Of a stretch of 64,000 nucleotides of DNA, positions 4,710 through 60,940 are shown piece after piece. Both the position numbers and the translations under genes were made by a program. The number at the start of each line of letters is the position of its first letter. Position 1 is the first letter of the stretch. Source of the stretch: Nitrospirota bacterium (GTDB taxonomy: Bacteria; Nitrospirota; JACRHL01). Under the pieces are notes generated by a model. The model saw nothing but the letters and a program-made list of their open reading frames with translations, was not told the origin of the DNA and made no database searches. The DNA lies in NCBI GenBank assembly GCA_016212085.1, contig JACRHL010000011.1:1-64000 (forward strand), in the 5' to 3' direction.

Positions 4710-4731
4710 GCACGGGTATTTTCCGCAGACC

Positions 4732-7933: not shown

Positions 7934-7937
7934 GTTC

Positions 7938-8672
7938 ATGTTCAGAAACCTTAAAAATAGATTCAACCAGATCAGGGAACGGTACCGGCACGGCAACAAC
8001 CCGGAGTGGGGTGTCTTTCACCTGGCATCCACCGACCGGGCGTTGGGGCGCATCGTGGCGCGCGGCTTGCGGATCGGTACCGTCGTTGATGTCGGCGCCT
8101 CCAACGGATCGTGGTCCGCGGCGTGCATGCGGCATCTTCCCGATTCGGAATACCTCCTTCTCGAGGCCCAGCGCTGCCACGAGAACAAGTTGGTCGAATT
8201 CTGCAAGAAACATCCAAACTCAAAATATATCCTGGCGGCCGCCGGGAACGAGGACGGCCAGTGTTTTTTTGATGATGGTGATCCGTTTGGCGGGCTTGCG
8301 GCAAATGAATCCACGGCGGGCTGCAAGACGGAACTGCCGATGGTGCGGCTTGACACGGTGATGGGGAGGGAGAATCTGAAGGGTCCATACTTATTGAAGC
8401 TGGATACCCATGGATTTGAATTGCAGATCATTCACGGTTCGGAGGAAATGCTCCGGCAAACGGAGTTGGCCATAATCGAGGCATACATCTTTCGTCTGAA
8501 TGACAAGGCCATGCTCTCCCATGAGCTTTGCGCTGAGATGGATAAGCGCGGTTTCCAGCTGATCGATTTTTCGGAACCGATGTGGCGAAGCAAGGATATG
8601 GCCCTATGGCAATGGGACCTGTTCTTTGTGAAGAAGACCAACCCGGTTTTTCAAAGCAATTCGTATGCGTAG
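7938..8672 (+). CDS. FkbM family SAM-dependent methyltransferase
   Basis: O-methyltransferase, probably acting on a sugar of the polysaccharide. SAM motif VVDVGASNGSW, then MVRLDTVMGREN and YLLKLDTHGFELQIIHGSEE, which are the FkbM hallmarks. Protein length is 244 residues. It starts 4 bases after the upstream glycosyltransferase. The stop codon TAG is formed exactly at the edge of repeat copy B (host TA plus first G of the element), so the C-terminus may have been altered by insertion. In several O-antigen systems a terminal methyl group ends chain growth and is read by Wzt; that role here is inference. Confidence 0.82.
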   Translation: MFRNLKNRFNQIRERYRHGNNPEWGVFHLASTDRALGRIVARGLRIGTVVDVGASNGSWSAACMRHLPDSEYLLLEAQRCHENKLVEFCKKHPNSKYILAAAGNEDGQCFFDDGDPFGGLAANESTAGCKTELPMVRLDTVMGRENLKGPYLLKLDTHGFELQIIHGSEEMLRQTELAIIEAYIFRLNDKAMLSHELCAEMDKRGFQLIDFSEPMWRSKDMALWQWDLFFVKKTNPVFQSNSYA

Positions 8673-8837
8673 GGGCACCTTTCAAAACCGTCGCGAGCGG
8701 TCCGAGTGCAAGGCGCCCCGAGCGGGGCGGCACCGTTACGCCGCGCGGAACCCGACACATATCCGTTGGATAGGAGGGGGTTCGGGCGCCGCCCAACGCA
8801 GCGATCGGAGCGCGCAGCAGGTTTTGAGAGGTGCCCC
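8672..8837 (-). repeat. copy B of the dispersed inverted-repeat element (166 bp)
   Basis: Flanked by GGGGCACCTTTCAAAACC (from 8672) and its near-perfect inverse GGTTTTGAGAGGTGCCCC (to 8837), one mismatch in 18. The reverse complement aligns along its length with the element at 24928-25100, for example GCGGCGTAACGGTGCCG. It fills the whole gap between the methyltransferase stop and the next gene. No protein is plausible in it. I could not identify a convincing target-site duplication. Confidence 0.75.
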
Positions 8838-8852
8838 ATAGGTTTGGTTGTC

Positions 8853-10124
8853 GTGACAGAGCATTCGCACGTGACGATCCTGCTTTACAACCACGCGACG
8901 GGAACCGGCCACCACGATTCCTGGACGGCCTTGTTCGCGGCGTTGCTGCGTGAGCGCGGATATCGCGTGATCTGCGCCACGGCGGATCCTTCTGCGTTGA
9001 GGGTCGCCCTGGAAATCCAAGGGCCTGGTTCGGCCCACGCCATTCATTTGATGGAACTGCCCGCCGTGGTCGCGCCGCCGCCGTTGAGCCGCTTCGAGCG
9101 AGCGGTGCGCGGCGCTTGTCGCGTGGTGCGCGGATTACGTGCGGGGCCGGATGGCTCCGGGCGCTACCACGGAAACCTGATTCGTGCGGTCGATTCCGCC
9201 ATGAAACATTCACCGTGGAAGCCGGATTTCATGTTGTCCATGTATGCCGATGTCTGGATGACAAACCCATCCTACTGGCGGACGGCGGCTGACAATGTGC
9301 CGATACCGTGGGGTGGCATCCGCTTCATTCCGTCCCGGAAGGAAAACGCCGGCAGGGAGGGCTATTTTCGAGACCCCAATTTTCGGGGCCTGTGCTTTCT
9401 GGACGAGGAAGCGGCCGCCCGTTACCAGAAGCGCAACCCGGAGCGGGTCTTTCAAGCCCTGCCGGACGTCGCCAACATCCTGCTGCCACCCGGGCAGTCG
9501 CAAATCGCGGGAGAAATGCGGCGTGTCGCCGCGGGCAGGACGATCGTTCTGTTGTGTGGCTCGATCGAGGGCCGGAAAAACGTCAAGGCATTTTGTGAAG
9601 TGGCCTTGATGCCCGATTGTGACGGGTTTCTTTTTGCCATTGTCGGGCAGATTCACCCCGCCACGCTGTCGATGGATGAAAAGAAACTGTTGAAGGCATT
9701 TTCCGAGTCACCGCCGCGAAATGCATTCATTCGGGATGTCTATTTTGAGGACGAACGCGACATGAATGCGGTTATTGATGCATCGGATATCATTTTCGCG
9801 GCCTACAGGAACTTCCGCATTAGCAGCAATATCCTGGGCAAGGCGGCCGGGCTGGGGAAGCCGCTTCTGGTGAGCGACGGATACGTCATGGCGGACCGGG
9901 TCGGGCGCTATGGCATCGGCCTCTCCGCTCCGGAGGGTGACGCTCGGCTGATGCTTGAGAAGTTACGGCTACTTGAAAAAAAAGCAATCCCAGCGAGTAA
10001 GTTTGAGCGGTTCACGGCGGATTTTTCCGCAAAGAAAATGGGTGATGACCTTGGGGAATTTGTCGAACAATGCCTGGACCGGGCACCCTGTCGGGGCGAG
10101 GCAGTGGATCGGGCCGGGGCGTGA
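8853..10124 (+). CDS. putative glycosyltransferase, GT-B like
   Basis: A 423-residue protein of the polysaccharide locus. The N-terminus HVTILLYNHATGTGHHDSW and the later LLCGSIEGRKNVKAF, IVGQIHP and ILGKAAGLGKPLLVSDGYVM look like a GT-B glycosyltransferase with the nucleotide-sugar site in the C-terminal half, but I cannot place it in a named family. GTG 8853 is chosen because it lies just beyond the repeat with TAGG upstream; a longer in-frame extension to 8706 would be encoded by repeat copy B and is unlikely. Base composition is lower in GC than in the gmd or wzm genes. Confidence 0.65.
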   Translation: MTEHSHVTILLYNHATGTGHHDSWTALFAALLRERGYRVICATADPSALRVALEIQGPGSAHAIHLMELPAVVAPPPLSRFERAVRGACRVVRGLRAGPDGSGRYHGNLIRAVDSAMKHSPWKPDFMLSMYADVWMTNPSYWRTAADNVPIPWGGIRFIPSRKENAGREGYFRDPNFRGLCFLDEEAAARYQKRNPERVFQALPDVANILLPPGQSQIAGEMRRVAAGRTIVLLCGSIEGRKNVKAFCEVALMPDCDGFLFAIVGQIHPATLSMDEKKLLKAFSESPPRNAFIRDVYFEDERDMNAVIDASDIIFAAYRNFRISSNILGKAAGLGKPLLVSDGYVMADRVGRYGIGLSAPEGDARLMLEKLRLLEKKAIPASKFERFTADFSAKKMGDDLGEFVEQCLDRAPCRGEAVDRAGA

Positions 10125-10137
10125 GCAGTTGTAGCTG

Positions 10138-12018
10138 ATGTGCGGCATTCTGGGAATCACGCCTCCCGGCGAGCGGGAACATTTTGCCGAGGCATTGGCG
10201 CGGCTTCGCCATCGGGGGCCCGATGGCGGCGGCATTTTTTGCGACGATGCGATCATGCTCGGGCACCGGCGGCTGTCCATCCTGGATATCTCGGATACCG
10301 GTCGGCAGCCCATGGCATACGCTGGCGGACGTTATCAGATCGTATACAACGGGGAGGTCTACAATTTTCCTGACCTGCGGGCCGACCTTGAGGCGCGGGG
10401 TCATGTATTTTGCAGTTCGAGCGACACCGAGGTCGTCCTGGCCGCCTATGCCGAGTGGGGGCCGGACTGCCTGCGGCGCTTCAACGGCATGTGGTCCCTT
10501 GCCATCTGGGACACGCGGGAGCGGACGCTATTCCTGAGCCGCGACCGCCTGGGCAAGAAGCCGCTGTTCTACGCATGGATCGGCCGTCAATTCGTGTTTG
10601 CCTCCGAGATGAAGGCGATCATGGCCTTCATGGAGAATGCCAGGCCAAACCGGGACGTGGTGCTGCGCGCGGTGCAAAACGCGTTCTGCTACGAGGCCAC
10701 CGACCAGTGCCTGATCGAGGGCATCCGGCGATTTCCGGCCGGACATTACGGCGTCCTGCGGGATGGCGGAGCGCTTTCCCTCACGCGTTACTGGAACACC
10801 CTGGACCACCTTGTCCAGGTGCCCGAACGCTATGAAGAGCAGGTGGAGGTGTTTCGCGAACTGTTCCTGGACGCGTGCCGAATCCGCATGCGCAGCGATG
10901 TCCCGATCGGCACGGCGTTGAGCGGGGGACTGGATTCGTCGTCCACCATCAGCTCCATGGCGCACGTGGGGCGGACAGTGCGCGGCGAGCGCGTCAGCAA
11001 TGACTGGCAGCACGCCTTCGTGGCCAGTTTCAAGGGGTCATTCCTGGACGAGTCCGAACATGCCAGGAAGGTGGTCGATAACTTGGGCATTCAAGCCACG
11101 TTCATCGAAATAGACCCGGCCCAGGGCGTGGGGCGGATGAACGATTATTTTTACCACTTCGAGGAGCTTTACTTTACCAGCCCGATTCCGTTCATGCTTA
11201 CCTATGGCGCGGTGCGCGACCACGGCATCAAGGTGACCATCGACGGGCACGGGGCGGATGAGCTGTTTGCCGGGTACCCGGGCGCCATCATCGCGGCCAT
11301 CGACGACGCGGGATGGAACCGGCGGCGGGTGCGCGAGGTGACCGATACGATCAAGGGGATGTTCCCGGAGAACCAGGGGCAGTCCGTTGCGCCAAATCTG
11401 GGTCTTACGCACCGATTGCGCAGGTTCTATCAGTCGACAAAGGGTATTCCGCGCCGGTTCCTGTCCGGCAGGAAAACGGATATCCGGCTCAAGCGGATGG
11501 GCGCCCTCAACCGCACGCTTTACACGCAAACGCACGAGACGATCCTTCCCACGCTGCTGCGCAACTACGACCGGTACAGCATGGCCAACAGCGTCGAGAT
11601 CCGCATGCCGTTCCTGGATCACCGCATCCTGTCGTTCGCCTTTTCCCTTCCGTGGCATGCCAAGGTTCGGGATGGATACAGCAAGAAGATCGTCCGGGAC
11701 GCCATGGCGCCGTTCCTGCCGGCGGATATCGCATACCGCCGCGACAAGATCGGCTTCAACAGCCCCACCGTGGAGTGGATGAGGGGGCCGCTGCGTTCGT
11801 TCGTTCTGGATACGATTCACGATCCGGCGTTCAAGGCATCGGCACTGGTTGACGCGAAGCGCGCCGCCGCCCTGGTGAGCCGTGTCCTGGAGAGCCCCGC
11901 TGCCACCTTTGACGACGGCAGCCGGGCATGGGCCAGCCTGGAGCCGTTCCTGTGGGAACGCGCCATGTTCTCCAAAAGACCGGGTGCGGCGTCCGCGGGG
12001 GATGGGGCGACGGGATGA
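10138..12018 (+). CDS. asnB: asparagine synthetase-type glutamine amidotransferase (first copy)
   Basis: The N-terminal glutaminase domain starts MCGILGI, with Cys2 as nucleophile, then HRGPDGGG and YNGEVYNFPDLR. The C-terminal ATP-pyrophosphatase domain has SGGLDSSSTISS and DGHGADELFAGYPG. It is 626 residues, typical for AsnB. Such proteins make asparagine, but in surface-polysaccharide loci they often amidate uronic acids or other carboxyl groups. With a uronic acid-forming dehydrogenase at 1192 the second role is plausible but unproven. The next gene starts within its stop codon. Confidence 0.85.
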   Translation: MCGILGITPPGEREHFAEALARLRHRGPDGGGIFCDDAIMLGHRRLSILDISDTGRQPMAYAGGRYQIVYNGEVYNFPDLRADLEARGHVFCSSSDTEVVLAAYAEWGPDCLRRFNGMWSLAIWDTRERTLFLSRDRLGKKPLFYAWIGRQFVFASEMKAIMAFMENARPNRDVVLRAVQNAFCYEATDQCLIEGIRRFPAGHYGVLRDGGALSLTRYWNTLDHLVQVPERYEEQVEVFRELFLDACRIRMRSDVPIGTALSGGLDSSSTISSMAHVGRTVRGERVSNDWQHAFVASFKGSFLDESEHARKVVDNLGIQATFIEIDPAQGVGRMNDYFYHFEELYFTSPIPFMLTYGAVRDHGIKVTIDGHGADELFAGYPGAIIAAIDDAGWNRRRVREVTDTIKGMFPENQGQSVAPNLGLTHRLRRFYQSTKGIPRRFLSGRKTDIRLKRMGALNRTLYTQTHETILPTLLRNYDRYSMANSVEIRMPFLDHRILSFAFSLPWHAKVRDGYSKKIVRDAMAPFLPADIAYRRDKIGFNSPTVEWMRGPLRSFVLDTIHDPAFKASALVDAKRAAALVSRVLESPAATFDDGSRAWASLEPFLWERAMFSKRPGAASAGDGATG

Positions 12019-12929
12019 CCCCCATCGCGCTGTTCGCATACAACCGGCCCGATCATCTCCGGCGCGCGCTGGAGTCGCTGGCCCGGTGCGATCGGCTGGA
12101 TGAATGCCGATTGCACATCTTCTGCGATGGCGCCAAAAACCCCCGGGGCGCCGAGGCCGTGGAGGCCACGCGGCGCGTGGCGCGCGAGTGGGCGCCAAGG
12201 CTGAACGCCGAGGTGATCGAGCGGGAGGCCAACCTGGGCCTGGCCCGCTCCATCGCCGGAACCGTCACCGAGTTGTGTGACCGGCACGGGCGGGTGATCG
12301 TGGTGGAGGACGATCTGGTCGTGTCCGCCGATTTCATCGACTACATGCTCCAGGCCCTGGACCGCTACCAGGACGCGGAAGATGTATACCAGGTGTCTGG
12401 CTACATGTTCCCGGTGGCGCACCCGGAGGCGCCGGACGCCTTCCTGATGCCGCTCACCACCACCTGGGGGTGGGCCACCTGGAAGCGCGCCTGGGACGCC
12501 TTCGACTGGCATGCGACGGGAGCCTGGAAGGCCCTGTCCAGCCGCAACGCGCGGCGCAAGTTCGATCTGGGTGGCGCCTACGGCTATACGGACATCCTGC
12601 GGGATCGCCTGGCGGGTGACAACGACTCGTGGGGCATCCTGTGGTGGTGGTCCGTTTACCGCGCGGGCGGGCTGGCGGTCCACCCGCGCCGCTCCCTGGT
12701 GTGGGTGGGGGGGTTCGATGGCTCCGGCACCCATTGCGACGACCTGGACACGTTGGGTCAGGCCGCCGCCGGTGAGCGGGGCGACCGCGTATTTGAAACC
12801 CCCATCCGCTGGCCGTTGGGCATGGCGGCGGATTTGAGGGCATTGGGCCGCGTGACCGCGTCCCTGAAGTGGATGAAGTGGCGGCGGAGGTTCAGGTATT
12901 GGTTGCGAAGATGCTCGATAAGCTGCTGA
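12015..12929 (+). CDS. glycosyltransferase, GT-A fold
   Basis: A 304-residue protein whose start ATG overlaps the asnB stop. It begins PIALFAYNRPDHLRRALESL, a common start of GT2-like proteins, and has a metal-binding acidic motif in VIVVEDDLVVSADFIDYM. TWGWATWKRAWDAFDW is a conserved block of a group of polysaccharide-locus transferases related to the GNT-I/POMGnT type. It probably adds one residue of the repeat unit. Donor and acceptor are unknown. Confidence 0.78.
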   Translation: MTPIALFAYNRPDHLRRALESLARCDRLDECRLHIFCDGAKNPRGAEAVEATRRVAREWAPRLNAEVIEREANLGLARSIAGTVTELCDRHGRVIVVEDDLVVSADFIDYMLQALDRYQDAEDVYQVSGYMFPVAHPEAPDAFLMPLTTTWGWATWKRAWDAFDWHATGAWKALSSRNARRKFDLGGAYGYTDILRDRLAGDNDSWGILWWWSVYRAGGLAVHPRRSLVWVGGFDGSGTHCDDLDTLGQAAAGERGDRVFETPIRWPLGMAADLRALGRVTASLKWMKWRRRFRYWLRRCSISC

Positions 12930-13519
12930 AAAAACTGCGCGGCCAGCCACAGCGCAATCCGGTCCGGCGTTTGCGCGAGAGCGTCGGGGAGGTGTCCGTC
13001 GGTGCCGGTTCGCGGGTGACGGGCTGCCGCGTGACCGCCCGCCAGCCGGAGGGGTGCTCGCTGGTCATCGGCGAGGCCAGCAACATCGAGTGCCGGATCG
13101 TGTTCGAGCGCGGGCAGGTACCGGTGGCGATCGGGTCGCGCACCCACATCGGGGGCGGCACGTTGCTGGATGCCGCCTGTGGCATCCAGGTGGGGGATGA
13201 CGTGCTGATCGCGTTTGACGTGCTGATCATGGACCATGATTCCCATTCCTTGGCCTTCAATGAGCGGCAACACGACGTGGCGGATTGGATGGCGGGGCGC
13301 AAGGACTGGACCCATGTAAACCGTGCGCCGGTGCGGATTCGTGACCGGGCATGGATCGGCGCCCGGTCAATGATCCTGAAGGGCGTGGAAGTGGGACAAG
13401 GCGCCGTGGTGGGTGGGGGGGCCGTGGTGACCCGCGACGTGCCGCCGTGGACCATCGTCGCGGGCAATCCGGCGCGGGTGATCCGCGAGCTGACGGACGC
13501 GGAGCGTGGGTTGTCATGA
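12911..13519 (+). CDS. hexapeptide-repeat acyltransferase (acetyltransferase)
   Basis: A left-handed beta-helix transferase of the LbetaH type, likely O-acetylating the polysaccharide. Hexapeptide repeats are visible in IGSRTHIGGGTLLDAACGIQ, RIRDRAWIGARSMILKGV and the closing VGGGAVVTRDVPPWTIVAGNPARVI, which is the standard C-terminal signature of the WcaF/NodL/maltose acetyltransferase group. The catalytic His is probably in MDHDSH. I chose ATG 12911 (202 residues), overlapping the previous gene by 19 bases; an ATG at 12869 would add 14 residues. Confidence 0.82.
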   Translation: MLDKLLKKLRGQPQRNPVRRLRESVGEVSVGAGSRVTGCRVTARQPEGCSLVIGEASNIECRIVFERGQVPVAIGSRTHIGGGTLLDAACGIQVGDDVLIAFDVLIMDHDSHSLAFNERQHDVADWMAGRKDWTHVNRAPVRIRDRAWIGARSMILKGVEVGQGAVVGGGAVVTRDVPPWTIVAGNPARVIRELTDAERGLS

Positions 13520-14361
13520 CCGGAATCTCGTGGGAAGACGCCGTTCGCTGGTACCGCAACCAGCCGGACAACGATCTGGCGATCCGGCAGAACTATTTCG
13601 ACCTGCCGGTGCGGCGGGCGGCGGCCCGCTATGCGGACGGGGAGGAGTTTGCCGAGATCCGGCGCCTGCTGGGGCCCGGCGCCGGCCGCGCGGTGCTGGA
13701 CCTGGGCGCGGGACAGGGGGTGTCGGCCTATGCCCTGGCCCGGGACGGCTGGCGGGTGACCGCCCTGGAGCCGGACCCGAGCGGCGAGGTGGGGGCGGGG
13801 GCCATACGCGGCCTTCAGGCCGAGACGGGGCTGCCCATCGAGGTGGTGCAGGAGTGGGGCGAGCGGCTGCCGTTCGCCGATGCGGTGTTCGATTGCGTGC
13901 ACGGCCGCCAGGTGCTGCACCACGCCAACGACCTGGGCCGGATGGTGGCCGAGGTGTTCCGGGTGCTGAAGCCGGGGGGGCACGCCCTGTTCACGCGCGA
14001 GCACGTGGTGGATGACGCGCGGCAACTGGCCGTCTTCCTGAAGAACCACCCGTTGCAGCACCTGTACGGTGGCGAGCACGCCTACCCGGAGGCCGCCTAT
14101 CTCGCCACCTTCGAAAAAGCCGGGTTTGCGCTGAGCGATTGCTGGGGGCCGTTCGACACGGTGATCAATTTCTATCCGGGCACCGAGGCGGAACGGCTGC
14201 GCCGGATCGAGGACCGGCTGAACCGCCGCTGGTTCGGCCTGGGGCGGTGGCTCCGGCGGGGCCCGGCGGACCGGGCGCGGTGCATGGCGGCGTGGCGCCG
14301 GGATTTCCGGGTTCCGGGGCGCCTGTACACCTTCTGGATGGTCAAGCCGTGCGCGTCCTGA
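13516..14361 (+). CDS. class I SAM-dependent methyltransferase
   Basis: A 281-residue protein with SAM motif VLDLGAGQGVSAYALAR, a motif II acidic position in VTALEPDPS, and the Methyltransf_11 blocks GERLPFADAVFDCVHGRQVLHH and RVLKPGGHALFTREH. A 61-residue N-terminal extension precedes the SAM fold. It is coupled to the acyltransferase by an ATGA overlap and overlaps the next gene by 13 bases. It is probably a sugar or lipid-linked-glycan methyltransferase; the substrate is not deducible. Confidence 0.78.
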   Translation: MTGISWEDAVRWYRNQPDNDLAIRQNYFDLPVRRAAARYADGEEFAEIRRLLGPGAGRAVLDLGAGQGVSAYALARDGWRVTALEPDPSGEVGAGAIRGLQAETGLPIEVVQEWGERLPFADAVFDCVHGRQVLHHANDLGRMVAEVFRVLKPGGHALFTREHVVDDARQLAVFLKNHPLQHLYGGEHAYPEAAYLATFEKAGFALSDCWGPFDTVINFYPGTEAERLRRIEDRLNRRWFGLGRWLRRGPADRARCMAAWRRDFRVPGRLYTFWMVKPCAS

Positions 14362-15248
14362 TCACCGGCTGCCACGGGTTCGTCGGCTCCAGCGTCGGCC
14401 TGTGCGCCGCGCGCGCCGGGCACGGGGTCATGGGCGTGGGGCTGTCGGCCCAGCCGCCCACGGGCTGGCCGGGCGCCTACCGGCAGATGGATGTCGCCTT
14501 TTCCGACCTGGCGGCGCCGGTGCGCGACTTCCAGCCCGATATGGTGCTGCACGCCGCCGGTTCCGCCTCGGTGGGGGGGTCGTACCAGGCGCCCGTGGAC
14601 GACCTGCGGGCGGCGGTGATGACCTGGGCCAACACCCTGGACGGGGTGCGCCGGTCGGGGCTTGCGCCGCTGGTGGTGTTCCCGTCCAGCGCGGCGGTGT
14701 ATGGCAACCCGGACACCCTGCCGGTGCGCGAGGACGCGCCCATCTCGCCCATCTCGCCCTACGGCTTCCACAAGGCGGCGGGCGAGCTGGTGGCCAGGGA
14801 GTACGCGGCCTGCTTCGGGCTGAACGTCGTGGTGGCCCGGCTGTTCTCGGTTTATGGGCCAAGGCAGCGGCGCCTGCTGCTGTGGGAACTCTACGAACGT
14901 GCCGTGGGTCCCGAGGCGGAGGTCGTGCTGCACGGCACCGGAGGGGAAAGCCGCGATTACTTGCACGTGGACGATCTGGCCGGTGTGCTGCTGGAGCTTG
15001 GCGCGGTGCGCCCGGCCGGCCTTACGATGGTGAACGTGGCCTCCGGCCGGGAAACCCGGACCATCGATCTGGCGCGCATGGTGGTGGCGGCGGTGGGGTG
15101 CGCCAAGCCGGTGCGGCCGCTGGGACAGGCGCAGACCGGCAATCCGGTCAACTGGCGCGCCGACGTGTCTGCCCTGAACTCCCTGGTGCCCGTGGCGGTC
15201 CGGCCGTTGGAGGAGGGGATCGGCGCGTGCGTGAGGGCCTGGCGATGA
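14349..15248 (+). CDS. NAD-dependent sugar-nucleotide epimerase/dehydratase
   Basis: Extended SDR protein, 299 residues. The NAD-binding motif is VLITGCHGFVGSS at the N-terminus; a serine pair in FPSSAAVYG and the YxxxK motif in SPYGFHKAAGE form the active site. RDYLHVDDLAG is the usual substrate-domain signature. It would convert a nucleotide sugar (epimerisation, dehydration or reduction); UDP-sugars are most likely, but this cannot be read from the sequence. The start is GTG 14349 (product begins MRVLITG), inside the end of the methyltransferase gene. Confidence 0.8.
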   Translation: MRVLITGCHGFVGSSVGLCAARAGHGVMGVGLSAQPPTGWPGAYRQMDVAFSDLAAPVRDFQPDMVLHAAGSASVGGSYQAPVDDLRAAVMTWANTLDGVRRSGLAPLVVFPSSAAVYGNPDTLPVREDAPISPISPYGFHKAAGELVAREYAACFGLNVVVARLFSVYGPRQRRLLLWELYERAVGPEAEVVLHGTGGESRDYLHVDDLAGVLLELGAVRPAGLTMVNVASGRETRTIDLARMVVAAVGCAKPVRPLGQAQTGNPVNWRADVSALNSLVPVAVRPLEEGIGACVRAWR

Positions 15249-16384
15249 GGATTGCCCTGCCCGCCTACGACGTGGCCGGCTGGACCGCCGGGGCGGTGTT
15301 CACCGAGATGATCCTTCGCGCGCTGCGGCTGGCCGGCGGCGACGACGTGGACATCGTGGTGTTGTGCGACCACCGGCCGGGCGCGCGCGACCGCTGGAGC
15401 GGCCTGGCGACGGCGGTGGTCCCCCCCCGGCAGACCCTTGTCGACCGCGCCGTGATGCGCTTCGACGGCCATTTTCCGGACGCCGTGGAGCGGTACTGCC
15501 ACCGCGCCGGTGTGGATGCGTTGCTGCTCTATACGCGCCTTGCGGCGCGGCACACGCGGTTCAGGCGGATTCCGTGGATTCCCGATTTTCAGCACCGCAG
15601 CCTGGCGGAGTATTTCTCCGACCGGGAACTCGCCGAGCGGGACAAGGCACACAGGCGCTGCGCGCGCCTGTCGGACGCCATGCTGTTCTCCAGCCAGGCG
15701 GTGTGCGACGATTTTGCGCGGTACCATCCGGCCCACGCGGCCAAGGGGCGGGTGGCCCGCTTTCCGTCGCTGTATGCGTTCTGCCCGCCGGAGGGGCCGG
15801 TCGGCATTGGTCCGGGCCACTATGGGATGCCGGACAAATTCATCCTGGTGGCCAACCAGTACTGGATTCACAAGAACCACGGGGTGGTGATCGAGGCGCT
15901 GGCCATTCTGGCCCGGCGCGGCATCAGGGCGCACGCCGCGTTCACGGGGCTGCCCAGCGACTACCGAAACCCGGCCAACGCCAATGTGTCCGAGATGTTG
16001 CAGTCGATCGCGCGGCACGGGCTGGCCGGCCAGGTGATTCCCCTCGGCCTGGTGCCCAAGGCGCACCTGACGGACCTGATGCGCGCCGCGTGCGTGGTGG
16101 TGCAGCCCTCCCGCTTCGAGGGGTGGAGCACGGTGGTGGAGGACGCCAAGGCCCTGGGGCGGCCCGTGATCTGCTCGAACATTCCGGTGCACCGGGAGCA
16201 GGCGCCGGACGGCCTGGGGTTCTTTGACTGCGACGACCCGGCGGCGCTGGCGGACATCCTGGAGCGGCACTGGGATGCCCTTGCCCCCGGCCCGGACGCG
16301 GCGGCCGAGGCGGACGGCCTGCGCCGGGAACAGGCCATGGCGGAGGCCTATGGCCACCTGCTGCTGGATATTTGCCGCGGGTAG
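15245..16384 (+). CDS. family 4 glycosyltransferase (GT-B)
   Basis: A 379-residue protein beginning MRIALPAYDVAGWTAGAVF, with the GT4 donor-site region KFILVANQYWIHKNHGVVIEA and the E-x7-E type motif around VVQPSRFEGWSTVVEDAKALGRPVI. WIPDFQHRSLAEYFSDREL is also typical of GT4 enzymes. The start ATG overlaps the epimerase stop. It is the last gene of this plus-strand run; the sulfotransferase gene converges on it. A small hairpin, GTGCGC/GCGCAC at 16390-16408, lies between the two ends. Confidence 0.83.
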   Translation: MRIALPAYDVAGWTAGAVFTEMILRALRLAGGDDVDIVVLCDHRPGARDRWSGLATAVVPPRQTLVDRAVMRFDGHFPDAVERYCHRAGVDALLLYTRLAARHTRFRRIPWIPDFQHRSLAEYFSDRELAERDKAHRRCARLSDAMLFSSQAVCDDFARYHPAHAAKGRVARFPSLYAFCPPEGPVGIGPGHYGMPDKFILVANQYWIHKNHGVVIEALAILARRGIRAHAAFTGLPSDYRNPANANVSEMLQSIARHGLAGQVIPLGLVPKAHLTDLMRAACVVVQPSRFEGWSTVVEDAKALGRPVICSNIPVHREQAPDGLGFFDCDDPAALADILERHWDALAPGPDAAAEADGLRREQAMAEAYGHLLLDICRG

Positions 16385-16399
16385 GCGGCGTGCGCCATT

Positions 16400-17173
16400 T
16401 CAGCGCACGATCGGCCCCGCCCCCGGCGCGATGCCGTCAAAGCAATATCCGAAGCGGGCGATGTCGGCCTTGAAGGCCTGGGCCACCCGTTCGCGGGTGG
16501 CGTCGGTATAGTAGCCGCGGTAGTCCTTGTGCCGGCTTGGGTTGGCGTGGGGCAGGGTGATGGCGGGGATGCCGATGGCGCGGCACACGTGGGCGAAGTC
16601 GTCGTCCAGGGTTTCCATGCGGCCCACGTAGTCCACGATCAGGTTGCCGTGTTCGTCGGTGACGAACGCTTGCTGCGTGTGCAGGTCGTGGGCGATGCGC
16701 CAGTGAAGGTAGTCGTCAAAATCGCGAAACGATCGCCCAAGCTGGTGCTGGTGGTGGTTGGGGTCCTTCAGCATGTAGTGATACAACGATACCTGCCAGT
16801 CCCACGGGTTGCGCACGAAGGCGAACTTGAAACAGCGGTCGAACACCGTCGGCCCCAGCATCGCCCGCGCCTGGAGGGCGGTCATGTGCCCGTCGGGCAG
16901 CCTCGGCCAGTGGATGCCCAGGCGGCTCAGGTGGGCGGCCAGGCGGCGCTTGGGGTAGTCCTCGCAGTACCGCTCCAGGGAGGCGCGGATGCTGGTGCCC
17001 GCCACCTTGTAGACGTGGATGAAGAGGAAGCGCTTCTGTGGGACACCAACATGAGGACACAACCCGTGTGCATTGGAAGGCGGCACCGGCCCGACCTGGC
17101 CCATGCCGGGCCGAGGCGGCCTTGCCGGAGGGACCATCGGAGAAATGAAGGCCGGTTTGTAATAAGATAGCAT
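16400..17173 (-). CDS. PAPS-dependent sulfotransferase (Sulfotransfer_2 type)
   Basis: Transfers sulfate from PAPS to a carbohydrate. The 5'-phosphosulfate loop is FLFIHVYKVAGTSIRASL and the 3'-phosphate site is probably in FKFAFVRNPWDWQVSLYHYM, with the conserved R-NPW-D of this family. YVGRMETLDDDF and HANPSRHKDYRGYYTD are further family blocks. The start is uncertain: ATG 17173 gives 257 residues; ATG 17137 or 17104 would put the phosphosulfate loop closer to the N-terminus, as is more usual. None has a clear ribosome binding site. With cysC at 577 it forms a PAPS-making and PAPS-using pair in one locus. Confidence 0.8.
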   Translation of the reverse strand: MLSYYKPAFISPMVPPARPPRPGMGQVGPVPPSNAHGLCPHVGVPQKRFLFIHVYKVAGTSIRASLERYCEDYPKRRLAAHLSRLGIHWPRLPDGHMTALQARAMLGPTVFDRCFKFAFVRNPWDWQVSLYHYMLKDPNHHQHQLGRSFRDFDDYLHWRIAHDLHTQQAFVTDEHGNLIVDYVGRMETLDDDFAHVCRAIGIPAITLPHANPSRHKDYRGYYTDATRERVAQAFKADIARFGYCFDGIAPGAGPIVR

Positions 17174-17389
17174 CTCATGCCGGTGCCGCAAGCGCCGCCT
17201 GGGGCGCCGCTTGCCGTTTTCCCGCCGTTTTCCAGTGACTGGACCGTTGTTGACCGCCGTTCCGCGATTCCGCGTCCCCTTTTGCCTGAAGGAACTGCGC
17301 CCCGTCGGCGCGGCGGCGGGGTGCGTTGCGGCGCCACGCGGCCCGCGTGGCGGGGCGCGCGGCCGGTCCGGCGGGGGGGCCTAGGGGCC

Positions 17390-19330
17390 ATGTGCGGCAT
17401 CGCCGGATTCTTGTCCCCCATCGACGACCCGGCGCGCGCCACCCGCGTGCTCGCGGCCATGACCGACGCCATCGTGCACCGGGGGCCGGACGACGCAGGG
17501 CACTGGGTGGACCCGGCGGCGGGGGTGGCCCTGGGGCACCGGCGCCTGTCCATCGTCGAGCTGTCGCCCCTGGGGCACCAGCCCATGGCGTCGGCCTCGG
17601 GGCGCTTCTCGATCGTCTTCAACGGCGAGGTCTATAACTTCCGCGCCCTGCGGGCGGAGCTGGAGGAGAAGGGGCACGCCTTCCGCGGCCATTCCGACAC
17701 GGAGGTGATGCTGGCCGCCTTCGAGCAGTGGGGCGTGGCCGGGGCGCTCACCCGCTTCGTGGGCATGTTCGCCTTCGCGTTGTGGGACGGGACGGCGCGC
17801 CGCCTGTTCCTGGCCCGCGACCGCATGGGCGAGAAGCCGCTCCATTACGGCTGGTGCGGCAATGCGTTCCTGTTCGGCTCCGAGCTGAAGGCCCTGCGTG
17901 CCCACCCGGCGTTCGACCGGGTGGTGGACCGGGGCGCCCTGGCCGCGCTGCTGCGCCACAACTACGTGCCCGCGCCGCACACCATTTACGAGGGCATCGC
18001 CAAGCTGCCGCCGGGCACCCTGCTGTGTGTGGACCCGGCCCGGCCGGGGGCGGAGGCGCCGGAGCCCTATTGGTCCGCCCGCCGGGTGGCGGAGGACGGC
18101 TTCACGCACCCCTTCCCCGGAACGGACGCGGAGGCGGTGGATACCCTCGACCGCCTGCTGCACGACGTGATCCGCGACCAGATGCTGGCGGACGTGCCGC
18201 TGGGGGTGTTCCTGTCCGGCGGCATCGATTCGTCCACGGTGGCAGCGGTGATGCAGCACATCAGCGCGCGGCCGGTGCGCACCTTCACCATCGGCTTTGG
18301 CGAGAAGGGGTACGACGAGGCCCCCCATGCCAGGGCCGTGGCCCGCCACCTGGGCACGGAGCACACGGAGCTGTACGTGACCCCCCAGGAGGCGCTGGAC
18401 GTGATTCCGCGCCTGCCCGCCCTGTACGACGAGCCGTTCGCCGACGTGTCGCAGATCCCCACCTTCCTGGTGGCGCACATGGCCCGCAAGCACGTGACCG
18501 TGGCCCTCTCCGGCGACGGTGGCGACGAGCTGTTCTGGGGCTACACGCGCTACAAGATCGCCCTGGACACGTGGAACCGTATGCGGCGCATCCCCGCGCC
18601 CGTGCGCAACGCCCTGGCGGCGGCCGTGCGTTGCCTGCCGCCGGAGCGGTGGAACCGCCTGTTCGCCTGGGCCGGCCCCATCCTGGCCCGCTACGGCCGC
18701 GCCTCGGTGGGCGACAAGCTGCACGCCGCCGGGGGCATGCTGGCCGCGGGCAGGCTGGACGCCATCTACCGGAGGCTGGTCTCCCACTGGCCGGACCCGG
18801 CGGCGGCCCTGCTGTCCGGCGCGGAGCACGGCACCATTCTCACCGATCCGGACAACCGCCCGGCGGGGGCGGCCCCGGAGCAGCTCATGCCCTATTGGGA
18901 TCTGTTCACCTACCTGCCGGACGACATCCTGGTGAAGGTGGACCGGGCCGGCATGGGGGTGAGCCTGGAAACCAGGGAGCCGCTGCTGGACCACCGGGTG
19001 GTGGCCTTCGCCCTGGGCCTGCCGCAGCACATGAAGGTGCGTAACGGGCAGGCCAAGTGGGCGCTGCGCCAGGTGCTCTACCGCCATGTGCCGCGCGAGC
19101 TGGTGGAGCGCCCCAAGATGGGCTTCGGCGTGCCCATCGGCCAGTGGCTGAAGGGGCCCCTGCGCGGCTGGGCGGAGGAACTGCTGGACGAGCGCCGCCT
19201 GCGCGAGCAGGGCTACTTCAAGCCAGACATCATCCGCGAGCGGTGGGCGCAGCACCTGGCGGGCAGCCGCGACTGGCAGTACCACCTGTGGGACGTGCTC
19301 ATGTTCCAGGCCTGGCTGGAGGGGCGGTGA
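17390..19330 (+). CDS. asnB: asparagine synthetase-type glutamine amidotransferase (second copy)
   Basis: A 646-residue paralogue of the gene at 10138. The product starts MCGIAGFLSPIDD with Cys2 nucleophile; HRGPDDAGHW, FNGEVYNFRALR and a synthetase domain with LSGGIDSSTVAAVM and ALSGDGGDELFWGYTRY follow. AGGGG just upstream supports ATG 17390. It is the more canonical of the two copies and more GC-rich, so it may be the housekeeping-like or older form. It overlaps the next glycosyltransferase by 4 bases. A role in amidating a glycan component is inferred from context. Confidence 0.87.
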   Translation: MCGIAGFLSPIDDPARATRVLAAMTDAIVHRGPDDAGHWVDPAAGVALGHRRLSIVELSPLGHQPMASASGRFSIVFNGEVYNFRALRAELEEKGHAFRGHSDTEVMLAAFEQWGVAGALTRFVGMFAFALWDGTARRLFLARDRMGEKPLHYGWCGNAFLFGSELKALRAHPAFDRVVDRGALAALLRHNYVPAPHTIYEGIAKLPPGTLLCVDPARPGAEAPEPYWSARRVAEDGFTHPFPGTDAEAVDTLDRLLHDVIRDQMLADVPLGVFLSGGIDSSTVAAVMQHISARPVRTFTIGFGEKGYDEAPHARAVARHLGTEHTELYVTPQEALDVIPRLPALYDEPFADVSQIPTFLVAHMARKHVTVALSGDGGDELFWGYTRYKIALDTWNRMRRIPAPVRNALAAAVRCLPPERWNRLFAWAGPILARYGRASVGDKLHAAGGMLAAGRLDAIYRRLVSHWPDPAAALLSGAEHGTILTDPDNRPAGAAPEQLMPYWDLFTYLPDDILVKVDRAGMGVSLETREPLLDHRVVAFALGLPQHMKVRNGQAKWALRQVLYRHVPRELVERPKMGFGVPIGQWLKGPLRGWAEELLDERRLREQGYFKPDIIRERWAQHLAGSRDWQYHLWDVLMFQAWLEGR

Positions 19331-20406
19331 GGCCCGCCCGCGTCCTGTTCACCATCCCCAGCCTGGACGGGGGCGGTGCCGAGCGGGTGCTGGTGACCCT
19401 GCTCACCCACCTGGACCGGGCGCGCGTCACGCCCCACCTGGCCCTGGTGGACGCGCGCGGCGTGCACCTGGAAAAAATTCCGGCCGACGTGCCGGTGACG
19501 GCCCTGGGCGGGCGCGGGCCCCTGGCCTTCTGGCGCCTGCTCAGGCTCATCTGGCGGATGCGGCCGGACGTGGTGTTCTCGTCCCTCACCTTCTACAACA
19601 CCCTGGTGCTGCTGTTGAAGCCGCTCGCCCCCCGGGGGGTGCGCTTCATCGTGCGCGAGAACAGCCAGCCCTCCATCCACCTGCCGACGATGCCCTATGG
19701 CTGGCTGCGTTGGCGCCTGTACCCGCCGGCGCACCGCCGGGCGGACGCCATCGTGTGCCAGTCCCCCGCCATGGTGGACGAGGTGGCGGCGGTGGGGGTG
19801 GACCCGGAGCGCCTGGTCTGCATCCCCAACCCGCTGGACATCGACGCCATCCGCGCCGGCGCGCCGCGCCCGGACCCCTACGCCGATCCGCACCCGCGCC
19901 TGGTGGCCGCCGGGCGGCTGGTGCCGGTGAAGGGGTATGACCTGTTGCTGGACGCCTTTGCCACGGTGGCGGCCAAACGGCCGGACGCGACCCTGCACCT
20001 CCTGGGGGAGGGGCCGGAGGCGGCGGCGCTGAAGGCGCAGGCGGCCAGGCTGAACGTCGCCCATCGCGTGCGCTTCCACGGCTTTGTGGCCGATCCGCTG
20101 CCGTGGTTCGAGCATGCGGACCTGTTCGTGATGAGCTCCCGCTACGAGGGCTTCCCCAACGTGACCCTGGAGGCCATGGCCACCGGCACGCCGGTGGTGT
20201 CGTTCGACTACCCCGGCGGCAGCCCGGTGGTGGACGGGGTGAACGGCTGGAAGGTGCCCCCCGGCGACACCGCCGCCCTGGCGGCCCGCATCCTCCAGGC
20301 CCTGGACGGGCCCCGGCCCACCCCGGACGCCCTGGCCGCCTCCATCGAGCGCCACCGGGTGGCCCGCGTGGTGGCCGAGTTCGAGGCGCTGTTAACAGGC
20401 CCCTAG
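19327..20406 (+). CDS. family 4 glycosyltransferase
   Basis: A 359-residue GT-B enzyme. The N-terminal acceptor-side loop is IPSLDGGGAERVLVTLL; donor-side motifs are LVAAGRLVPVKGYDLLLDAF, LLGEGPEAAALKAQAARL and FVMSSRYEGFPNVTLEAMATGTPVVSFDYPGG, ending with the VVDGVNGW loop. The product starts at GTG 19327. Its last codons and stop (Leu-Leu-Thr-Gly-Pro-stop) come from TTAACAGGCCCCTAG, which resembles the end of the adjacent 272 bp palindromic element, so the natural C-terminus may have been replaced. Confidence 0.87.
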   Translation: MRPARVLFTIPSLDGGGAERVLVTLLTHLDRARVTPHLALVDARGVHLEKIPADVPVTALGGRGPLAFWRLLRLIWRMRPDVVFSSLTFYNTLVLLLKPLAPRGVRFIVRENSQPSIHLPTMPYGWLRWRLYPPAHRRADAIVCQSPAMVDEVAAVGVDPERLVCIPNPLDIDAIRAGAPRPDPYADPHPRLVAAGRLVPVKGYDLLLDAFATVAAKRPDATLHLLGEGPEAAALKAQAARLNVAHRVRFHGFVADPLPWFEHADLFVMSSRYEGFPNVTLEAMATGTPVVSFDYPGGSPVVDGVNGWKVPPGDTAALAARILQALDGPRPTPDALAASIERHRVARVVAEFEALLTGP

Positions 20407-20674
20407 GGCCTGTCAACACAAATGGCAAGCGCGGCGTTGCGCCCCGAACGGCACCAGGCAAGGCGCGCGGAAGCGTGGTTTGGCTTAAGCTGAATGAGCG
20501 ACGCGCAACGCCGCATGGGGCCGTTCGGGCCGCGACCCGGAGGGACGGCCCATTTTTTCGCAACCCAGCGTTGCAGCGCTTGCCCGTACGGCCGGTACGG
20601 CCCGCGCGCCGCGCCTCGGTTTGCAAAAAAATGGGCTCCGTCGCCGCCCTTGCCTTTGTGTTAACAGGCCCTAG
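20403..20674. repeat. 272 bp palindromic element between convergent genes
   Basis: Both ends read CTAGGGCCTGT-AACACAAA inward: 20403 onwards on the plus strand and 20674 backwards on the minus strand, with about 30 mostly matching bases per arm. A second nested inverted repeat (about 20544-20566 with 20619-20642) contains T6/A7 runs, and the centre is CCGTACGGCCGGTACGG (20584-20600). No ORF is credible in it. It is unrelated in sequence to the 166-173 bp family. The stop codons of both flanking genes lie in the terminal CTAG. Confidence 0.7.
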
Positions 20675-21471
20675 AGCCTCAGGCGCTTGAACAGCGGCTC
20701 CGGGATGAGCCGGATCACCAGCATGACCACGCGCCAGAAGCCGGGCAGGTAGACCACCTCCGGCCCCCTCTTCTCCAGGGCCTTGTGAATGCCCCGGGCC
20801 ACCCGCTCCGGCGTGGCCCACAGGGGGCCCTTGGTGAAGGTGGCGGTCATGGGCGTGTCCACGAAGCCGGGCTTGATGGTCACCACGCGCACCCCGGCCG
20901 GGTGCAGCCGGTTGCGCAATCCTTGCAGGAAGATCGCCAGCGCCCCCTTGGCGGTGCCGTACACGTAGTTGCTCCGCCGCCCCCGGTCCCCCGCCACGGA
21001 GCCGATCACGCAGAGGGTGCCGTGGCGCCCGGCCTCGAGGCGGTTCGCCACCAGGGTGAGCAGCGCCGCGATGTTCAGGAAGTTGGTTTCCAGGGCCTGC
21101 CGGGCCACCTCCCAGTCCGCCTGGGAGGCGGCCTGGTCGGGCAGGGTGCCGTGGGCCACCAGCACCACGTCGAGCCCCTCCATGTGGGCGGTGGCGGTGT
21201 CCAGCAGCTCGCCGTGGCGCATGGTGTGGTCCAGGTCCAGGGCCATGGTGCCCACGCGGGCGGCGCCGCGGGTGGTCAGGTCGTCGGCGATCTGGCCCAG
21301 GTGGGTGGCGTCGCGCCCCGCCAGGAACAGCGTGGCGCCGTCCGCCGCCAGCAGGCGGGCGGTGGCCTGGGCGATGGCCGAGGTGGCGCCGACGATCAGG
21401 ATGCGGACCCCTCCATCAGCCGGCTGCGCGGGCTGCTCGTGACGGTCGGTGGGGGCGTCCTGGTGTCTCAT
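20671..21471 (-). CDS. SDR reductase, DprE2-like (decaprenylphosphoryl-2-keto-ribose reductase)
   Basis: Short-chain dehydrogenase of 266 residues: nucleotide motif ILIVGATSAIAQATARLLA, NxAG-like VLVAHGTLPDQ, catalytic Ser in CVIGSVAGDRG and YxxxK in YVYGTAKGAL, then IKPGFVDTPMT. In the mycobacterial pathway DprE2 reduces the 2-keto intermediate made by DprE1 to decaprenylphosphoryl-D-arabinose. The assignment rests on the ATGA coupling to a clear DprE1-like gene as much as on its own sequence. The ATG at 21471 is chosen because longer forms run through the upstream gene in another frame. Its stop codon is formed by the edge of the 272 bp element. Confidence 0.8.
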   Translation of the reverse strand: MRHQDAPTDRHEQPAQPADGGVRILIVGATSAIAQATARLLAADGATLFLAGRDATHLGQIADDLTTRGAARVGTMALDLDHTMRHGELLDTATAHMEGLDVVLVAHGTLPDQAASQADWEVARQALETNFLNIAALLTLVANRLEAGRHGTLCVIGSVAGDRGRRSNYVYGTAKGALAIFLQGLRNRLHPAGVRVVTIKPGFVDTPMTATFTKGPLWATPERVARGIHKALEKRGPEVVYLPGFWRVVMLVIRLIPEPLFKRLRL

Positions 21472-22775
21472 GATTCCTCCGGGCGCACCCGCCGCCAGAA
21501 GGCGGAGGAGAAGCGCGGGTCGACAAAGCGGACGAACGTCTCCAGCCGGGGATGGTAACGCGCGAAGCCCGCCGCCGTCATGCGCGCGTCCTTGGCGGGG
21601 TAGAGGGCACCGCCGGCGGCCTCGACCACCCGGTCCAGCCGCTCGAACAGGGCGAGGGTGGAGCGGCCCCGGTTGGGAAAATCCAGCGCCAGGGTGTAGC
21701 CGGGCCGGGGGAACGACAAGAGGCCCGGCGAGGGCAGGCCGCCGAACCCCTTCAATACCGCCAGGAACGACCCCTGGCCGGAGGCGGCGACGATGCCCAG
21801 CAACTCCTTGAGCGCCGCCCCGCCGTCCGCCCGGGGCACCACGCACTGGTACTGGTAGAAGCCGCGCCTGCCGTACAGCCGGTTCCACTGGCCGATGCCG
21901 TCCAGCGGGTAGAAGAACGGCCCCAGGTGCTGCACCCGCGTTCCCGCCCTGGCGCGCCGGTAATAGAGGCCGTTGAAGGCGGACAGGGTGGCCCGGCCCA
22001 GCAGCCAGGCGGGGGCGTCGAACGGCACGCGCAGGGCCGGGTCGCCCAGCGGCGGCGCGGCGGTGCGGGCCATGTGGCGGGCGTGATTGCCGCCCATGAA
22101 CACGCCGCGCCCCAGGTTCCTGCCCCGGGCCAGGCAGTCCACCCAGGCCACCGTGTACTCGTGGCTTGGCTCCGACGCGTCGTTCAGGGCGATGAACTGG
22201 TCCACGCCGCCAAAGCGCGCCGTCTCCACCGCCACGTATGCGGAGGGAATGGGCTTCAGGGCGATCTCCGCCCAGGTGATGAGGCCCGTCAGCCCCAGGC
22301 CGCCGATGGTGGCGGCGAACCAGTCCGGGTTCTGGTCCGGGGAGCAGGTCAGCCGCTCGCCGGTGGAGCGGCGCAGCTCCAGGGCGCGCACGTGGCGGCC
22401 GAAGGTGCCGGCCACGTGGTGGTTCTTGCCGTGCACGTCGTTGGCGATGGCGCCCCCCAGGGTGATGAAGCGGGTGCCGGGGGTGACCGGCAGGAACCAC
22501 CCGGCGGGCACGGTCAGGCGCAACATGTCGGCCAGCAGCACGCCCGCCTCGGCGCGCAGGATGCCGCGCTCCCGGTCGAAGCGGGTGAAGCGGTCCAGGC
22601 CGCGGGTGTCGAGCAGCACGCCGCCCGGATTCAGGCAGCTGTCGCCATAGCTGCGGCCGTTGCCGTGGGCCAGCAGGGTGCCCTCGTCCGGCAGCGCCGC
22701 GTCGCGCCAGCGCAGGCGCAGCGGCTCCCCGGCGGCGATGGGCAGGCGGCCCCAGCAGGTGTATCCGGCGGCCAT
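21468..22775 (-). CDS. FAD-dependent oxidase, DprE1-like (decaprenylphosphoryl-ribose 2'-oxidase)
   Basis: FAD-binding type 4 oxidase of 435 residues. HGNGRSYGDSCLNPGGVLLD is the DprE1 FAD-site signature, followed by PVTPGTRFITLGGAIANDVHGKNHH, with the His of VHGKNHH near FAD, and GLGLTGLITWAEIALKPI. The C-terminal substrate domain contains FLAVLKGFG and GYTLALDFPNRG. In mycobacteria the enzyme oxidises the 2'-OH of decaprenylphosphoryl-ribose. Together with the SDR and UbiA neighbours it points to D-arabinofuranose donor synthesis, which is uncommon but known in some proteobacteria. Confidence 0.85.
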   Translation of the reverse strand: MAAGYTCWGRLPIAAGEPLRLRWRDAALPDEGTLLAHGNGRSYGDSCLNPGGVLLDTRGLDRFTRFDRERGILRAEAGVLLADMLRLTVPAGWFLPVTPGTRFITLGGAIANDVHGKNHHVAGTFGRHVRALELRRSTGERLTCSPDQNPDWFAATIGGLGLTGLITWAEIALKPIPSAYVAVETARFGGVDQFIALNDASEPSHEYTVAWVDCLARGRNLGRGVFMGGNHARHMARTAAPPLGDPALRVPFDAPAWLLGRATLSAFNGLYYRRARAGTRVQHLGPFFYPLDGIGQWNRLYGRRGFYQYQCVVPRADGGAALKELLGIVAASGQGSFLAVLKGFGGLPSPGLLSFPRPGYTLALDFPNRGRSTLALFERLDRVVEAAGGALYPAKDARMTAAGFARYHPRLETFVRFVDPRFSSAFWRRVRPEES

Positions 22776-22779
22776 GGCG

Positions 22780-24243
22780 TCAGGTGGCGTACAGGATCAC
22801 CAGGGCGCCGATGGCGCCCGCCAGGTACGAGGCCCGGTCGGTGAGGGTGAACAGCAGCGGGTCGTCCTCCAGGTCGCCACGCCCGGCCAGCAGCCACAGC
22901 CGGCTGACCCAATAGATCACCAGCGGACACAGGGCCCACAGCCACTCGGGCCGGTGGTACAGGGCGCGCACGTCCGGGCTGTTCAGGTACAGGGCGAGCA
23001 CCAGCACCGCCAGGTAGCCGGCGGCGGTGCCCAGGGTGGACAGGACGCCCAGGTCGTCGGTGCGGTAGCCGCGCCCGGCGGGCACCGGGGCGCCGGCCAG
23101 CTTGAAGCGGCACAGCTCCGCGTGGCGCTTCACCATGGCCAGGCTGAGGAAGATGAACATGGCGAACGCGAACAGCCAGAACGACAGGGATATCTTGACC
23201 GCCGCCGTACCCGCCAGCACGCGCAGCACGTACACCCATGCCAGCAACAGCACGTCCACCACCATCACCCGCTTGAGGCGCAGGGAATAGGCCAGGGTGC
23301 ACAGGTAATAGACCCCCAACAGGGCCAGGAAGCGCGGCGGCAGCGGCGCCGCCACCAGCAGGGCGGCCCCCAGCAGGGCGGGGACCATCAGGGCGGCGTG
23401 GACGACGGACAGGTTGCCGGAGGCCAGCGGCCGGTTGCGCTTGACCGGGTGCGCGCGGTCGGCCCTGAGGTCGAGCAGGTCGTTGAGCAGGTACACGCTG
23501 GATGCGGTGAGGCCGAAGGCCAGCCAGGCGGTGAGCAGGGTACCCCAGGCGACCAGGTCGCCGATCCGGTGGGCGGCGATGAGCGGCACGAACACCAGCA
23601 GGTTCTTCAGCCAGTGGTGCAGGCGCATGGCCTTCAGGTAGGGGCCGGGGCCGCCGGGCCGGTCGGCGAACACCTGGGAAACCCGCGCCACGCGCCGCGT
23701 GGCCGCCTCCACGCCCGGGCCCGGATTGACCAGGACGGCCTCGCGGCAGGCCGCCCACACCGGCACGTCGGCACGGGCGTCGCCCGCGTAGTCGAAGCCG
23801 CCCCGGCCGAACCGTTCCACCAGCCGGTCGCGCTTGGCCGGGCCCTTCAGGTTGCGCGTGTCGTCGCTGGCCAGCACCTCGTCGAACAGGCCCAGGTGGG
23901 ATGCCACGCGCTCGGCGGTGGCGCGCGGCGCGGCGGTGACCAGCACCAGCCGCCGGCCCGCCGCCCGCTGCGCCTTGAGGTATTCCAGGAACCGGGCGGG
24001 ATAGGGCAGCGCGGCCGGATCGATCGGCCCGTGCGCCGCCAGGTAGGCCTTGAGCGGCGCCCGCCCGGCGCGCAGCCGCGCGAGCATGGGGAACAGCCGC
24101 CACGGCGCGGCGGTGAGCATGTCCAGCGCCGATTCCACCAGGGTGTCGGTACGCACCAGCGTGCCGTCCAGGTCCACGCACAGGGGGGGGAGGGCACCGA
24201 CCCCGGGGGAGTCCGGTGTGTGTTGCCGGCCGCTGCTCACCAT
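22780..24243 (-). CDS. HAD phosphatase fused to UbiA prenyltransferase (DPPR synthase-like)
   Basis: Two domains in one 487-residue chain. The N-terminal third is a HAD hydrolase: CVDLDGTLVRTDT (motif I), LVTAAPRATAERVA (motif II) and a later DYAGDARADVPVW (motif IV). The rest is an integral-membrane UbiA prenyltransferase with NDLLDLRADRAHPVKRNRP, matching the NDxxDxxxD polyprenyl-phosphate site, and about eight hydrophobic spans. The likely reaction is attachment of phosphoribosyl to polyprenyl phosphate followed by removal of the 5-phosphate, feeding DprE1/DprE2. ATG 24243 has GGAG just upstream; a GTG at 24252 is the alternative. It ends 4 bases before the DprE1-like gene. Confidence 0.85.
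   Translation of the reverse strand: MVSSGRQHTPDSPGVGALPPLCVDLDGTLVRTDTLVESALDMLTAAPWRLFPMLARLRAGRAPLKAYLAAHGPIDPAALPYPARFLEYLKAQRAAGRRLVLVTAAPRATAERVASHLGLFDEVLASDDTRNLKGPAKRDRLVERFGRGGFDYAGDARADVPVWAACREAVLVNPGPGVEAATRRVARVSQVFADRPGGPGPYLKAMRLHHWLKNLLVFVPLIAAHRIGDLVAWGTLLTAWLAFGLTASSVYLLNDLLDLRADRAHPVKRNRPLASGNLSVVHAALMVPALLGAALLVAAPLPPRFLALLGVYYLCTLAYSLRLKRVMVVDVLLLAWVYVLRVLAGTAAVKISLSFWLFAFAMFIFLSLAMVKRHAELCRFKLAGAPVPAGRGYRTDDLGVLSTLGTAAGYLAVLVLALYLNSPDVRALYHRPEWLWALCPLVIYWVSRLWLLAGRGDLEDDPLLFTLTDRASYLAGAIGALVILYAT

Positions 24244-59714: not shown

Positions 59715-60940
<1,226 letters not shown>

Follow-up and report, generated by a model that had tools for sequence, protein, structure and literature searches.

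The window (the whole 64,000-nucleotide stretch of DNA analysed, 69% G+C) belongs to a 2.70 Mb genome in 23 contigs that is 99% complete. At 20671-24243 its minus strand carries three genes: one for a HAD-UbiA fusion, one for a DprE1-like flavoprotein oxidase and one for a DprE2-like SDR reductase. The end of the SDR gene adjoins a mostly plus-strand polysaccharide locus. The features, in window coordinates, are as follows.

1192..20406, mostly plus strand: polysaccharide locus, context outside the operon (Pfam and NCBIfam)
20671..21471, minus strand: DprE2-like SDR reductase, 266 aa (NCBIfam PRK07102; GATSAIA and YGTAK motifs)
21468..22775, minus strand: DprE1-like FAD oxidase, 435 aa (PDB DprE1, E ~1e-78)
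21476..21480, minus strand: GGAGG, Shine-Dalgarno-like, read from the sequence, within the last part of the oxidase gene and before the SDR start
22780..24243, minus strand: HAD-UbiA fusion, 487 aa from ATG (NCBIfam PRK08238; Pfam HAD and UbiA; fold match 8j8j)
22783..23640, minus strand: UbiA (PPPRS-like) domain, about residues 202-487, with NDLLDLRAD at 254-262 and KRHAE at 372-376
23659..24186, minus strand: HAD (PRP-like) domain, about residues 20-195, with DxDGT at 24-28, K137 and D159

That the three genes form one operon is well supported, since the oxidase ATG lies 4 nt past the fusion stop. The SDR ATG overlaps the oxidase stop (ATGA), with the GGAGG just upstream of the SDR start, and the codon preceding the SDR Rossmann motif is GTC, which is no start codon. 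For the fusion, a GTG 9 nt upstream offers an alternative start that would give 490 aa. In GC content by codon position, the three genes resemble the two minus-strand neighbours measured. The earlier note had placed these genes in a single operon, and the coordinates and coupling that it gave are borne out. Between the operon and an upstream gene for an unrelated small membrane protein lies an imperfect inverted repeat of 42 nt around a loop of 10 nt (24421-24514), possibly a terminator or a REP-like element.

The fusion matches Pfam HAD at E 4.5e-12 and Pfam UbiA at E 1e-22; these values, like that of the oxidase against DprE1 in the PDB, are so small that a chance match is excluded. It scores 626 bits against NCBIfam PRK08238 (cut-off 351), a match that pairs residues 22-490 of the 490-aa version with positions 12-480 of the 482 in the model, and from the common domain order we infer that PRK08238 is the ORF15 type of Kelly et al. 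(2024). We aligned 64 fusions, namely that of the window and 63 from the best 80 loci of the genome scan described below (64 loci were chosen and 16 left out, and one of those chosen was removed because it had no clean frame). The HAD residues D24, D26, T28, K137 and D159 and the UbiA residues N254, D255, D258, D262, K372, R373 and E376 are invariant in all 64, and T103 of the HAD domain is kept in 61. Among PDB entries the UbiA half is nearest to mycobacterial DPPR synthase (8j8j, E 4.9e-25 by phmmer). Structure prediction, which the earlier note had proposed, used the 64-sequence alignment and gave a model with an overall pLDDT of 91.6, for which Foldseek returned 8j8j and 8j8k at the top (TM-score 0.82 to 8j8j, normalised to the target), followed by UbiA homologues and HAD-type phosphatases. 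In the model the UbiA half matches the DPPR synthase fold, and for the HAD half the matches are HAD-type phosphatases.

The UbiA family is broad, and we considered whether the UbiA half might instead prenylate a quinone or another aromatic compound, with the two oxidoreductases serving the same pathway. The models for 4-hydroxybenzoate octaprenyltransferase and heme o synthase do match the fusion, but weakly, at 32 bits each; the DPPR synthase model reaches 156 bits (below its cut-off of 234) and PRK08238 its 626 bits, both far over 32, and DPPR synthase is also the best fold match. Aromatic prenylation is therefore scarcely credible here. On the evidence of sequence and model, the fusion is predicted to be a polyprenyl-phosphate 5-phosphoribosyltransferase with a fused phosphoribosyl phosphatase.

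The proposal that such a protein covers the first two steps of the pathway has a biochemical precedent in its relative ORF15 of Citrobacter youngae, a HAD-UbiA fusion reported to make farnesyl-P-ribofuranose from PRPP and, when its HAD domain carries the D18A mutation, to yield mostly the 5-phosphate form (Kelly et al. 2024, PMC11127046). As in ORF15 of the C. youngae O1/O2 system, the HAD phosphatase of the window protein is N-terminal to the UbiA-type phosphoribosyltransferase, and the HAD aspartate, NDxxDxxxD and R..E are common to both.

Aligned with a DprE1 chain, the oxidase shows 40% identity across 385 residues, and in the PDB the DprE1 chains (E ~1e-78) stand far ahead of the next family (E 1e-14). 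Taking the inhibitor-contact residues of DprE1 from the list in PMC6128881, we found that 10 of the 12 mapped contacts are identical and that two differ (Ser228 to Val, Asn385 to Thr); H132, K134, W230, Q336, K367 and K418 are kept. The earlier note had reckoned with an active site unable to bind polyprenyl-phosphoryl-ribose; what we observe is an oxidase that retains most of the DprE1 pocket. Benzothiazinones attack Cys387 of M. tuberculosis DprE1, and since alanine occupies this position the oxidase is expected to evade their covalent inhibition. Cys387 is described as not required for DprE1 activity (PMC6128881). Against the NCBIfam equivalog NF053785 (DprE1) the oxidase scores 374.4 bits, under the cut-off of 500, and we therefore call it DprE1-like. 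The reductase has the classical SDR motifs, a glycine-rich loop (GATSAIA) and YxxxK (as YGTAK), and passes the PRK07102 cut-off (316.5 bits against 267); we call it DprE2-like because its 193.7 bits against the DprE2 model NF053786 fall under the cut-off of 250.

These shortfalls bear on whether the redox pair might act on another carbon, or only one of its members work, so that the donor would be a ribofuranose or a xylofuranose. Relatives are known to make ribofuranose by the fusion alone and xylofuranose with an added SDR, ORF13 (PMC11127046), and neither redox enzyme of the window reaches its equivalog cut-off (DprE1 or DprE2). Set against this are the conserved pocket contacts of the oxidase, the lack of any other solved oxidase that matches it nearly as well, and the association described by Kelly et al., in which DprE1/DprE2 homologues go with arabinofuranose glycans and an ORF13 homologue with xylofuranose (PMC11127046). 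We consider a ribofuranose or xylofuranose product quite improbable.

Our preferred reading is that the operon very probably makes a lipid-linked D-arabinofuranose donor. The UbiA domain would transfer 5-phosphoribose from PRPP to a polyprenyl phosphate, probably undecaprenyl phosphate, and the fused HAD domain would strip the 5-phosphate to leave a ribosyl-lipid. The DprE1-like flavoprotein would then oxidise the 2-hydroxyl of the ribosyl group, and the DprE2-like SDR would reduce the ketone from the opposite face to give polyprenyl-phospho-D-arabinofuranose. After these four steps, proteins that are not linked to the operon may flip the donor, and a GT-C enzyme acting outside the cytoplasmic membrane may transfer the sugar to a surface glycan or to a glycoprotein, such as the pilin suggested in the earlier note. 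The present analysis establishes gene content and coupling, the predicted fold of the fusion and its conserved catalytic residues, and work on relatives elsewhere covers the first two steps (ORF15) and the M. tuberculosis pathway. The action of this operon in all four steps, the undecaprenyl carrier and all events past the fourth step are inferred. It counts against the donor reading that the oxidase, the reductase and the UbiA half all score under the NCBIfam cut-offs for the mycobacterial equivalogs. A marine bacterium, Devosia submarina, is reported to produce an alpha-D-arabinofuranose polymer (PMC8707391).

As in the mycobacterial decaprenyl-P-arabinose pathway (Rv3806c, Rv3807c, DprE1 and DprE2), to which the UbiA half, the oxidase and the reductase are homologous, four reactions are predicted, and they are the same four. 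The mycobacterial carrier is decaprenyl, and the window proteins fall under the equivalog cut-offs; according to PMC11127046 the mycobacterial phosphatase stands as a protein of its own with no relation to HAD, whereas here a HAD domain is fused. The three-component pentofuranose system of C. youngae has no DprE1/DprE2, makes ribofuranose, or xylofuranose by way of ORF13, and includes a linked MATE flippase and GT136; in the window operon, by contrast, DprE1- and DprE2-like genes follow the fusion, and transporter and GT-C are not linked. D-arabinofuranose has also been described on Pseudomonas pilins (PMC12369383, PMC11841053), and there too (PSPA7_6245-6251, TfpW) a Gram-negative D-arabinofuranose donor pathway employs a UbiA homologue, although PMC11127046 describes the P. 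aeruginosa enzyme as having no fused HAD and the P. syringae B728a enzyme as carrying its PRP domain at the C-terminus.

Scanning genomes with an alignment of four fusions gave at least 545 confirmed relatives, and the best 80 were kept. Among these best 80 of at least 545 loci, a DprE1-like gene accompanies the fusion in 59, DprE1- and DprE2-like genes together in 54 and neither in 21, and 53 have the contiguous order fusion-DprE1-DprE2; the neighbours were called at bit-score limits of 60 and 100, and several loci lie on short contigs, so that misses may be truncation. The fusion alone does not imply arabinofuranose, as the 21 loci that lack both DprE-like genes show; in two genomes (G019 and G054), too, a reading by eye of the genes listed around the fusion saw no DprE1-like neighbour. 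These two fusions (L029, 9553-11016, in G019; L030, 9351-10859, in G054) lie beside genes that by eye resemble glutaredoxin and BolA; their product is possibly ribose. An LPG_synthase_TM gene lies within the locus in 27 of the best 80, and a block of an epimerase, an FAD amine-oxidase-like protein and GtrA accompanies the fusion and a DprE1-like gene in 22 of them (for example L083 and L067). Fusion relatives also occur on 101 plasmid records, 80 of which cover at least 80% of its length. A phage collection yielded a single partial match, which covers 38% of the query at 33% identity; Kelly et al. mention a phage-borne fusion (PMC11127046).

The operon arrangement is thus neither new nor rare, and adds one more example to a pathway already in the literature. 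The enzymology put forward in the earlier note finds support in the homology of the UbiA half, the DprE1 pocket and the ORF15 precedent, and the novelty that it implied does not hold, since the fusion and its link to DprE1/DprE2 are in print (PMC11127046) and 54 of the best 80 relatives have all three genes.

Other loci pair a UbiA protein with different redox genes. In L031 (9351-13154, genome G016) and L125 (7945-11900, genome G188) a UbiA gene precedes genes for a small protein, for a GMC oxidoreductase and for an extended SDR. In L071 (4967-11430, a Pedosphaera MAG) the first gene encodes a true HAD-UbiA fusion and the next a GMC enzyme joined to an N-terminal stretch like the small protein; after these come genes for a protein with 12 TM segments and for an extended SDR. 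The L071 GMC enzyme is 50% identical to that of G016, and the three loci come from records labelled as two phyla. At E <= 1e-60 the GMC type is found in 3 of 295 genomes of the phylum of the window, and two of these have it next to UbiA. Possibly this GMC oxidase and the extended SDR form an unrelated oxidase/reductase pair that replaces DprE1/DprE2. A common function of these loci is not established, since the two extended SDRs compared are 26% identical and the first UbiA motif of G188 has NE in place of ND, and the extended SDR may not need the GMC enzyme, because ORF13 is itself described as an SDR epimerase (PMC11127046). Among the matches listed in a literature search of titles and abstract starts, none describes a UbiA-GMC-extended SDR arrangement, and the pairing with UbiA or HAD-UbiA may be more novel than the window operon.

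The setting of the operon agrees with the Gram-negative polysaccharide locus that had been proposed, in that Pfam and NCBIfam identify an ABC-transporter-type locus next to it. Its genes include a UDP-sugar dehydrogenase, a GDP-mannose dehydratase, glycosyltransferases, an FkbM methyltransferase, two asparagine-synthase-type amidotransferases, an ABC-2 exporter pair (4732-6816) and, on the minus strand, a sulfotransferase. Family searches of the neighbours found no flippase or GT-C among the genes adjoining the operon. Genome-wide, LPG_synthase_TM (PF03706) and GtrA (PF04138) have zero matches and MatE has one, below the cut-off. The search for GT-Cs suggested earlier did find PMT_2-type enzymes, with four matches of which three are over the cut-off, all on contigs other than that of the window; it found neither a GT-C linked to the operon nor any tracking of the module by the GT-Cs of contigs C22 and C15.

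The case for either C22 enzyme (773 and 572 aa) as the arabinosyltransferase is weakened, as both have homologues in the fusion-less sister genomes G002 and G003; in G001, which has the fusion, the match to the 773-aa protein is no more than fragmentary (E 5.7e-4) and there is none to the 572-aa protein. The C15 enzyme (529 aa), which has no match in G001-G003, is a possible but unsupported candidate. The fourth PMT_2 match lies on C21. This presence test, run on the C22 and C15 enzymes, is weak with four genomes in the family. Next to the C22 enzymes, a small membrane protein weakly resembles EamA/SMR-like proteins that adjoin the fusion in L085 and L034 (E 0.003 and 0.007), which makes it a lead at most. 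For the flippase, the small membrane protein upstream of the operon (124 aa with roughly four TM segments, at 24519-24893) was considered and rejected: it has no homologue in the best 80 fusion loci, its homologues occur in G002 and G003 and not in fusion-bearing G001, and the inverted repeat separates it from the operon. Elsewhere in the window, a MITE-like repeat of about 170 bp occurs at 24928-25100, a copy with perfect 16-bp terminal inverted repeats (GGGCACCTCTATTAAC), and at 8686-8836, and has 45 matched stretches in about 40 places across the 2.7 Mb genome. An Rfam search of the window found nothing but tRNAs. By eye, 56550-63651 seems to hold genes for nitrogenase and associated proteins (nifK/nifD/nifH-like starts, a ferredoxin and a DraG-like gene).

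A donor that is made and then goes unused, the product of an orphan or recently acquired module in a genome without the partner transferase, would fit the unlinked flippase and GT-C, the failure of the profiled GT-Cs to track the module, and a patchy spread, in which 18 of 61 related genomes (that of the window included) have some match and 4 (G000, G001, G019 and G054) a near full-length fusion. The three frames are nevertheless intact, their catalytic residues are conserved and their GC by codon position resembles that of the neighbours, and the GT-C search covered PF13231, one family among several. Moreover, donor genes can sit far from their transferase, as described for P. paraeruginosa PA7, where the glycan genes are PSPA7_6245-6251 and pilA/TfpW/TfpX are PSPA7_5161-5159 (PMC12369383). 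We therefore regard an idle module as unlikely.

The lipid-linked D-arabinofuranose donor pathway is most familiar as a target of tuberculosis drugs, and the present survey shows the operon to be common outside the actinobacteria. A literature search for the pathway in Nitrospirota gave, among the matches listed, only work on M. tuberculosis DprE1/DprE2, which does not imply absence from print. There is an outside chance that this Nitrospirota lineage has a free-standing donor module, one that lacks the usual partners (LPG_synthase_TM, GtrA and a linked GT-C). Such a module would supply a flippase and an arabinosyltransferase that have gone unrecognised, for instance an enzyme that builds a D-arabinan which leaves the cell together with the glycan of the ABC transporter next door. 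The operon extends the donor pathway to an apparent Nitrospirota lineage, and predicts that D-arabinose would be found in its glycans.
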